NCBI GenBank assembly: GCA_001184205.1
Contig: LBMP01000002.1
Span: 271,444-335,443 of the forward strand
Origin: Desulfocarbo indianensis
Lineage (GTDB): Bacteria; Desulfobacterota; Desulfarculia; Desulfarculales; Desulfarculaceae
DNA length: 64,000 bases
Direction: 5' to 3'
The notes under the pieces are model-generated. The model was not told the origin of the DNA, made no database searches, and saw only the letters and a list, made by a program, of their open reading frames with translations. Of the stretch, positions 27,865-31,635 are shown in pieces; the stretch's first letter is position 1; each line of letters opens with the position of its first letter. Both the position numbers and the translations under genes were made by a program.

Positions 27865-28164
27865 ATGAGCGAGAAGCAATCCGGCCAGGGAGCCTGGCTG
27901 AAGGTTTTCTGCCCCAACGCCCGCTGTCTCAGCCAGGCGGAGGTGGCCCAGTTGCCGCCGGAAAAGCTGAGCGAGACCCAAGGGTCCGGCAAGGAGGGGC
28001 TCTGGTTGGAGCTTTTCTGCCCGGAGGGAGCCTGCGCCAGCGGTCCCCAGAAGTTCTGGACCGTGGAGCAAGCCACCGGCCAAGGTGGCGAAAAGGGGCT
28101 CTGGCTCAAGCTATTTTGCCCGGAGGGCTCCTGCCAGCTCAGCGAGCCCACGGACGAAGCCTAG
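27865..28164 (+). CDS. Small protein with three W-L-x-x-F-C-P-x3-C repeats
   Basis: A 99-residue protein that I do not recognise. A motif repeats three times: GAWLKVFCPNARC (residues 9-21), GLWLELFCPEGAC (45-57) and GLWLKLFCPEGSC (78-90). Each contains a C-x4-C pair, six Cys in total and no others. Linkers are polar and rich in Gly, Ser, Glu and Gln; there is no signal peptide. ATG 27865 follows AAGGAG with 7-nt spacing, a strong translation signal. The layout suggests three small metal- or disulfide-binding units; function unknown. Confidence 0.82.
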   Translation: MSEKQSGQGAWLKVFCPNARCLSQAEVAQLPPEKLSETQGSGKEGLWLELFCPEGACASGPQKFWTVEQATGQGGEKGLWLKLFCPEGSCQLSEPTDEA

Positions 28165-30454: not shown

Positions 30455-30579
30455 CAGGCTGCTGATAAAACCCCATCTGCGTCGTTGCTGCGGAAAAGGC
30501 TGAAACTCACGTAGATCCAACTACGCTTCGTTCCAGCCTTTTCCTCGCGCCTAGCATCCGGGGCTTTCTGAGCAGCCTG
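30455..30579. repeat. 125-bp imperfect palindromic intergenic element
   Basis: Outer arms begin CAGGCTGCT and end AGCAGCCTG; the inner arm GGAAAAGGCTGAAACTCACGTAG (abbreviated: 30492-30514) is matched by CTACG...CAGCCTTTTCC (30521-30544). The whole could fold into one long interrupted hairpin. It contains no ORF. From memory it resembles a recurrent noncoding repeat seen between genes in several deltaproteobacterial genomes; that needs a search. Confidence 0.7.
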
Positions 30580-30593
30580 GTCAGCTTGGCTTT

Positions 30594-30640
30594 GTCATCA
30601 AGTAAAGGCCCGGATCCCCAAAGGGGAGGCCGGGCCTTTT
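30594..30640 (-). terminator. Hairpin copy 2; likely terminator of the DM9 gene
   Basis: GTCATCAAGTAAAGGCCCGG followed by a hairpin with 10-bp arms (AAAGGCCCGG 30604-30613, CCGGGCCTTT 30630-30639). It lies 24 bp past the DM9 stop on the minus strand, followed there by TTTACTT; it could work in both directions. Confidence 0.6.
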
Positions 30641-30663: not shown

Positions 30664-31635
30664 CTAATCGCTCACCAGCACCTCGTAGGAATCCAGAGCA
30701 AATTCCTGGCCTCCCCAGCCGATGTTGCAGCGGCCCTGCCAGGTCTTGCCCGGATGCAACCCATCCCTGAAATTGGCCCGGCACACGCACTGGCTCTGCT
30801 GGCCGCGCCGGCCGGCCTCCACGCAGCGCCGGTTTCCGGCCCGGTCTTTGGGCAGCCAGGCCAGGCCTTGCCGCACCACCAGCACGTCATAGTTGTCCAC
30901 GGCCACTTCCCGGCCTCCCCAGCCGAGGTGGCATTTGCCCGCGTACAGCTTGCCGGGATGAACCCCGTCGCGGTAATTGGCTCGGCAAACGAACATCTCG
31001 CCCTGGTTGCTGTAGCCGCCCCCCACGGCTCCGGCCGGGATCTCTCCCGGTCGGGCCCGCTGCCAACTGGCGCCGTAGGCCGTCAGCACCTGGTAATCGT
31101 CCACCGCCACTTCCCGGCCTCCCCAGCCGAGGCGGCATTTGCGGTTGAGTATCTTGCCCACGTGCATGCCGTCCTGATAATAGGCGCGGCACACGTAAAG
31201 ATCGCCGGCCGGGCAGCGTCCGGCCAATACCGCGCCCTTGGGATAGCCCTGGCCATGGCGCACCCAGCGCGCCTGGCTGCGCGGCCCCACCAGCACCTCG
31301 TAGTCGTCCAGGGCGATTTCCTGGCCGCCCCAGCCGATGTTGCAGCGGCGGTTGACCACCTTGCCGGCGTGGAACCCGTCCTGGTGAAAGGCGCGGCACA
31401 CGTAAAGCGGCTGGCCTTGGGCCCTGCCGCCCACCACGGCTCCGGAGGGAATCTGCCCGCCGGAAAACCTCACCCAGCGCGCGCCCAGGTTCTGGATGGC
31501 CTGCGGGCGCGCCTGGTTCTGGCCGTTGCGCCAGTGGTCATCCTGCAGGGACCAGGGCGCGTCCGATTGGGCCAGGGCCGGAGCCCAGGCAAAACAAATG
31601 AGCGCGAGCAACGTGATCAAGGCCGCATGCTTCAT
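30664..31635 (-). CDS. Exported DM9-repeat (DUF3421) protein
   Basis: A 323-residue protein with an N-terminal signal peptide (cleavage probably after ALA at residue 22). Four DM9-type repeats of about 67 residues occupy residues 53-116, 123-184, 191-252 and 259-321. Their shared pattern is W-x...PxGAVxGG, LYVCRAxxxDGxHxGK, C-x-(I/L)GWGG(Q/R)E and YEVL. The fourth repeat lacks the PxGAVxGG part and has extra Cys. DM9 modules are known in insects and molluscs, where some bind mannose; here a periplasmic or extracellular sugar-binding role is inference. It is monocistronic. Confidence 0.88.
   Translation of the reverse strand: MKHAALITLLALICFAWAPALAQSDAPWSLQDDHWRNGQNQARPQAIQNLGARWVRFSGGQIPSGAVVGGRAQGQPLYVCRAFHQDGFHAGKVVNRRCNIGWGGQEIALDDYEVLVGPRSQARWVRHGQGYPKGAVLAGRCPAGDLYVCRAYYQDGMHVGKILNRKCRLGWGGREVAVDDYQVLTAYGASWQRARPGEIPAGAVGGGYSNQGEMFVCRANYRDGVHPGKLYAGKCHLGWGGREVAVDNYDVLVVRQGLAWLPKDRAGNRRCVEAGRRGQQSQCVCRANFRDGLHPGKTWQGRCNIGWGGQEFALDSYEVLVSD

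Follow-up and report, generated by a model that had tools for sequence, protein, structure and literature searches.

The stretch of DNA analysed here (the window, 64,000 nucleotides from Desulfocarbo indianensis) contains on its minus strand a gene for a protein of 323 amino acids with four DM9 repeats preceded by a signal-peptide-like N-terminus. The open reading frame occupies positions 30664-31635 and has an ATG start, its boundaries being identical to those in the preliminary description. The gene and the parts of its product are as follows, position 22 being counted as in the oyster lectin CGL1:

30664..31635, minus strand: DM9 protein gene, 323 aa (Pfam match; orthologue with 53% identity)
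31570..31635, minus strand: signal-peptide-like N-terminus, residues 1-22, ending in ALA before Q (hydropathy and a crude rule; cleavage site by eye)
31288..31485, minus strand: DM9 repeat 1, residues 51-116; K92, E106, W102; Cys80/Cys98; position 22 is Ala72
31081..31275, minus strand: DM9 repeat 2, residues 121-185; K161, E175, W171; Cys149/Cys167; position 22 is Cys141
30877..31074, minus strand: DM9 repeat 3, residues 188-253; K229, E243, W239; Cys217/Cys235; position 22 is Ser209
30670..30867, minus strand: DM9 repeat 4, altered, residues 257-322; K297, E311, W307; Cys285/Cys303; position 22 is Arg277

DM9 (PF11901, formerly DUF3421) is the only Pfam family found in the protein, and its profile matches the reading frame with an E-value of 5.4e-67 and 223.4 bits (cut-off 26.2). 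In the 5.1-Mb genome of the organism this profile has four matches, all inside the gene, which is thus the single DM9 locus, and it has no match in any of 14 control genomes. The GC content of the gene is 67.9% and its GC3 84%, the GC3 of the neighbours being 72-89%. Together with the E-values and the existence of an orthologue, this native composition excludes a chance reading frame. A search against NCBIfam produced a single row, which was considered to be due to chance. The host had been taken for a sulfate reducer, a label that is supported by the presence of dsrA in the genome (TIGR02064, 583 bits); the other genome of the genus is a Desulfarculaceae MAG, JdFR-95, in keeping with this label.

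The DM9 gene lies beside genes for an ABC transporter (Pfam families ABC_tran, BPD_transp_1 and SBP_bac_11), putatively of the molybdate/tungstate type, and is convergent with a gene for an NAD-dependent epimerase. Because the JdFR-95 orthologue has other neighbours, gene context was dropped as evidence. A scan for promoters and terminators around the gene was uninformative. The intergenic region between the DM9 and epimerase genes contains a repeat of about 126-150 bp (positions 30455-30602) that forms an imperfect palindrome. The genome holds twelve other copies with 91-97% identity, several of them also matching as reverse complement (71-74%); this repeat is possibly a miniature mobile element. 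Elsewhere in the window, a 99-aa open reading frame adjoining mutM (27865-28164, plus strand) shows three copies of a WLKxFCPExxC-like motif and is not matched by any Pfam family. Its homologues (48-54% identity, one per genome) are present in six of 20 relatives besides its own genome, and it represents an uncharacterised small protein family.

The four DM9 repeats are each about 65 amino acids long and pairwise 41-58% identical, in agreement with the initial delimitation of four such units in one reading frame. The fourth repeat had been described as altered, and it is indeed distinct in two respects: the IP-x-GAV start is missing and two extra cysteines, C271 and C283, are present. Both of these cysteines occur in the JdFR-95 orthologue, and the second also in a fragment from another genome of the family (G013), which covers only this second position. 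Since the extra pair is conserved in relatives, the change in repeat 4 is not one of decay. Besides these, every repeat contains a cysteine pair at positions 31/51. Among 72 aligned bacterial repeats, which include the four of the window and in which the near duplicates L026/L027 and L017/L018 were kept for all counts, both cysteines are found in 55, only the second in 14, neither in three, and only the first in none. The probability of the latter count being zero by chance is about 0.011 (hypergeometric), repeats not being independent of one another, and this co-occurrence lends weak support to disulfide pairing. Within a repeat the two cysteines are probably linked by a disulfide, which would fit an exported protein.

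The N-terminus of the protein, MKHAALITLLALICFAWAPALA followed by Q, resembles a Sec signal peptide according to its hydropathy and a crude rule, with a hydrophobic core reaching a 10-aa Kyte-Doolittle mean of 2.96 and an ALA cleavage site placed by eye. By the same crude rule, a signal-peptide-like start is present in 27 of 32 DM9 open reading frames but only in 51 of 431 other open reading frames (controls of at least 200 aa), which supports the secretion proposed earlier. Of the two traits that mark secreted bacterial DM9 proteins, a signal peptide and a cysteine pair per repeat, the pair is seen in all four repeats, whereas for the first there is a signal-peptide-like start by hydropathy and the crude rule. 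The gene thus encodes a real four-repeat protein that is probably exported.

The orthologue in JdFR-95 (G001) also consists of four repeats and is 53% identical. In a small FastTree of the repeats, with CGL1 as the sole eukaryotic sequence, repeat 4 of the window protein groups with repeat 4 of the orthologue and the G013 fragment (support 0.84), the second repeats of both proteins are sisters (0.71), and a clade with support 0.81 unites their third and fourth repeats with the fragment; repeat 1 is placed with poor support (0.39). CGL1 appears beside L011 on long branches, a placement that is not trusted. From these groupings, the four-repeat layout is probably older than the split between the two species.

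DM9 occurs sporadically in bacteria and is not an animal speciality, being found at a frequency of about 1% or lower among the genomes of every one of the four phyla sampled. PF11901 is present in three of 60 relatives and in two of 395 genomes of the phylum (own genome included in both counts), in 3/299 and 4/296 genomes of the phyla of a Thiotrichaceae and a Saprospiraceae genome, respectively (each including that genome), and in 1/292 of the phylum of a Nostoc genome, the single case being that genome itself. Two peptide patterns recovered at least 28 DM9 loci on genome contigs, an undercount that includes the JdFR-95 locus L015, and these are distributed over proteobacterial classes, Bacteroidota, Latescibacterota, Leptospiraceae, Sandaracinaceae, Nostoc and others. 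A pattern search gave no match in viral contigs, and plasmid and phage collections contained no relative of the window protein at E 0.01; four weak rows in the phage collection at E 10 had E-values of 1 or more and were taken as chance. Likewise, searching plasmids with the DM9 sequence of a Burkholderiales MAG (L022) gave no match.

Published work already places DM9 in the prokaryotes Legionella pneumophila and Enterobacter cloacae (PMC5712788) and lists it as a eukaryotic motif in several Legionella species (PMC4256840), while the UniLectin authors consider DUF3421 likely to be the oyster lectin family (PMC7778903). Natterin-domain proteins are said in a review to be absent from prokaryotes (PMC8402412), a statement that concerns natterins and not DM9 alone. 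The earlier hint at DM9 as a module of animals is weak, as the domain is spread across bacterial phyla and has appeared in print for Legionella and Enterobacter. No functional study of any bacterial DM9 protein was found in the open-access literature searched. DM9 has thus not proved to be a common bacterial domain with a known non-lectin role, a finding that would have spoken against a lectin: its occurrence is sporadic and no bacterial role was found.

In some bacterial proteins DM9 repeats are joined to known lectin domains. Among the 26 of 31 DM9 open reading frames from other genomes that were scanned with Pfam (L005, L006, L018, L027 and L032 being left out), eight have an additional named domain, which is a Ricin_B lectin domain in four (L020, L021, L024 and L030; L021 below the cut-off) and a mannan-binding MVL domain in one (L033). 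These fusions to lectin domains favour a glycan-binding role of bacterial DM9, although the carbonic anhydrase and gp19 partners are not lectins. The gp19 partner occurs in Latescibacterota, in a second open reading frame of L021 (9411-10589), where a signal-peptide-like start and two DM9 repeats are followed at the C-terminus by a T4 gp19 tail-tube domain (107 bits); another DM9 gene, with four repeats, is located about 1.7 kb upstream of it. In Saprospiraceae (L037, 5776-7614), two DM9 repeats are joined to a carbonic anhydrase of the Pfam 'eukaryotic-type' family (159 bits). Another bacterial protein (L035, 5551-6849) combines DM9 with Methyltransf_FA, a pairing reported in insects (PMC5712788). 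A single DM9 repeat in Nostoc (L039, 1747-2073) follows what appears by eye to be a double-glycine leader (EEAANTVGG before VDW) and not a Sec signal. Finally, an animal-like two-repeat DM9 open reading frame without cysteines or signal (L077, minus strand, 118.7 bits) comes from a genome that was binned to the phylum which also contains the Saprospiraceae genome, and has no obvious bacterial genes around it; eukaryotic contamination or transfer is possible in this case.

In AlphaFold2 models built from a 26-row alignment of the window and locus sequences, the four repeats are predicted to fold as two modules like CGL1, formed by repeats 1 and 2 and by repeats 3 and 4, respectively. Residues 25-323 are modelled with pLDDT 87.6 and pTM 0.69, and the second module alone with pLDDT 96.2 and pTM 0.89. 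Both predicted modules have the two-tandem-repeat fold of CGL1, which is their best match by VIA-align (5id8; module 1, Z 21.7, 1.7 Å over 133 residues; module 2, Z 21.0, 1.7 Å over 130 residues), followed by the nematode protein MFP2 (Z about 15); families that do not appear in these results may also share the fold. Ranked by Foldseek E-value, the full-length model matches MFP2 first (5.1e-10; CGL1, 9.3e-8), because that alignment spans both halves, though with an rmsd near 14 Å. A PDB row for complement receptor 1 was ignored, as it has no matched stretch of its own. Also by sequence, a bacterial DM9 profile finds CGL1 (5e-18).

The sugar sites of CGL1 have been described in its crystal structures. 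In site A, mannose is held by Asp22, Glu59, Lys43 and the backbone of Ala127, and His52 and Phe126 stack against it; site B consists of Lys114, Glu130, the backbone of Ala56, Phe55 and Tyr123, without an equivalent of Asp22 (PMC4932603). Mannose binding is abolished by the D22A and K43A mutations, and H52A has little effect (PMC5712788). Comparison of the 72 bacterial repeats with CGL1 reveals Lys at the equivalent of Lys43 in 70, Glu at that of Glu59 in all 72, Gly at position 56 (Ala in CGL1, contributing its backbone NH) in 71, and Trp, Tyr or Phe at position 55 (Phe in CGL1) in 70, while position 40, Thr in CGL1, is His in 71 and constitutes a bacterial hallmark. Position 22 is acidic (Glu or Asp) in 47, the loop there differing in length between CGL1 and bacteria, which makes equivalence at this position uncertain. 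In the window protein the Lys, Glu and Trp of the site are kept in all four repeats, and Lys and Glu likewise in the four of the JdFR-95 orthologue. However, its residues at position 22 are Ala, Cys, Ser and Arg in repeats 1-4, respectively, where the orthologue has Ser, Asp, Ala and Asp. As judged from these residues, all four putative sites resemble the weak site B of CGL1. The original suggestion of a sugar-binding protein is thus sustained in part, by the modelled fold and the conserved Lys and Glu, but not by position 22. Sugar binding is plausible and a CGL1-like binding of mannose is not predicted; since the Asp22 position is non-acidic throughout, the ligand is probably not mannose as in the strong site of CGL1.

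The explanation that we favour, with moderate confidence, is that the DM9 protein is secreted, tetravalent and stabilised by disulfides, and that it binds glycans with an altered specificity. It would be an exported carbohydrate-binding protein built of two CGL1-like modules. By analogy with CGL1, a pair of sugar sites would lie where the two repeats of a module meet, so that the protein could have as many as four. Each predicted site would comprise the Lys, the Glu, the aromatic residue (Trp) and a glycine backbone NH, and the disulfide in each repeat would make it fit for the periplasm or the cell exterior. With several sites, the protein could cross-link or coat glycans, e.g., polysaccharide, LPS or those of neighbouring cells. 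The loss of Asp22, the non-lectin function of the MFP2 fold and the lack of a conserved gene context were counted against a lectin.

The first two of these points lead to the strongest alternative, which we consider unlikely though worth serious attention: an exported DM9-fold scaffold that does not bind sugar and works as a structural or protein-binding module, as MFP2 does. MFP2 shares the fold and has a cytoskeletal role (PMC3110756), and the uniformly non-acidic position 22 departs from the prevailing acidic residue in bacteria. However, drift is unlikely to have preserved the site Lys and Glu in eight repeats of two proteins, a structural role for them being possible, and site B of CGL1 still held mannose in the crystal despite having no Asp22 (PMC4932603). 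A secreted lectin with an antagonistic or defensive task, for instance the binding of phage, predators or competitors, in the manner of the oyster DM9 proteins whose targets are microbial surfaces, is an improbable reading of the gene. Among the ligands of CgDM9CP-1 are LPS, peptidoglycan, mannan and whole microbes (PMC5712788), and the fusion to a T4 gp19-like tube protein would be in line with such a task, but there are no defence or secretion genes in the nine neighbouring open reading frames scanned and no matches in the phage or plasmid collections at the threshold given above. Recent acquisition of a eukaryotic gene, or contamination, is highly improbable despite the renown of DM9 in animals and the rarity of the gene in the phylum, given the orthologue in the only other genome of the genus and the fragment in the family, the native GC and GC3, the greater identity of the repeats to those of relatives (42-62%) than to CGL1 (23-34%; the only eukaryotic sequence compared), the bacterial-type cysteine pair, His and Trp, and the long contig with ordinary bacterial neighbours; nothing points to a recent transfer from animals.

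The window protein joins an already known, scattered set of bacterial DM9 proteins, to which it adds a twist at the ligand site. DM9 lectins have been studied as animal immune receptors, and the compact, exported four-repeat form of a free-living anaerobe, together with its relatives dispersed over several phyla, makes the bacterial side testable, both as to the ligand and as to whether animal DM9 lectins descend from bacteria. Moreover, the natural variation at the mannose-determining position of CGL1 provides a ready set for specificity mapping. A more tentative idea, to which we give a rather doubtful standing, is that bacterial DM9 lectins are an old, secreted, disulfide-stabilised class that arose before or in parallel to the animal immune ones, and that doubling of one of them to four repeats in Desulfarculaceae and re-tuning of its acidic position created a tetravalent lectin with a new specificity for bacterial glycans.

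Among known systems, the JdFR-95 orthologue (L005/L015) shares the four repeats, the extra cysteine pair of repeat 4 and the signal-peptide-like start, but has Asp at position 22 of its second and fourth repeats and other neighbours. Other secreted bacterial DM9 proteins, from the 28 loci above, have in common with the window protein a signal-peptide-like start, the cysteine pair, the HxGK...CNIGWGGKE motif and often two or four repeats; unlike it, they mostly have Glu at position 22 and several are fused to other domains (Ricin_B, MVL, Methyltransf_FA or carbonic anhydrase). Membership in the natterin type (DM9 plus aerolysin) was rejected, as there is no C-terminal aerolysin domain and Pfam gives DM9 alone. 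MFP2 of nematode sperm (2bjq, 2bjr) has a DM9-like fold in two halves as well, but these are arranged differently (overall rmsd 13.4-13.7 Å) and the protein serves sperm motility (PMC3110756). CGL1/CgDM9CP-1 of the oyster Crassostrea gigas (5id8, 5idb, 5mh1) resembles the modules in fold, in the site Lys and Glu and in the aromatic residue at position 55, with 24-27% identity in the fold alignments. In contrast, it consists of two repeats instead of four and has Ala/Ala in place of the cysteine pair and no disulfides (PMC4932603), while the window protein has lost Asp22, has His for Thr at position 40 and begins with a putative signal peptide.
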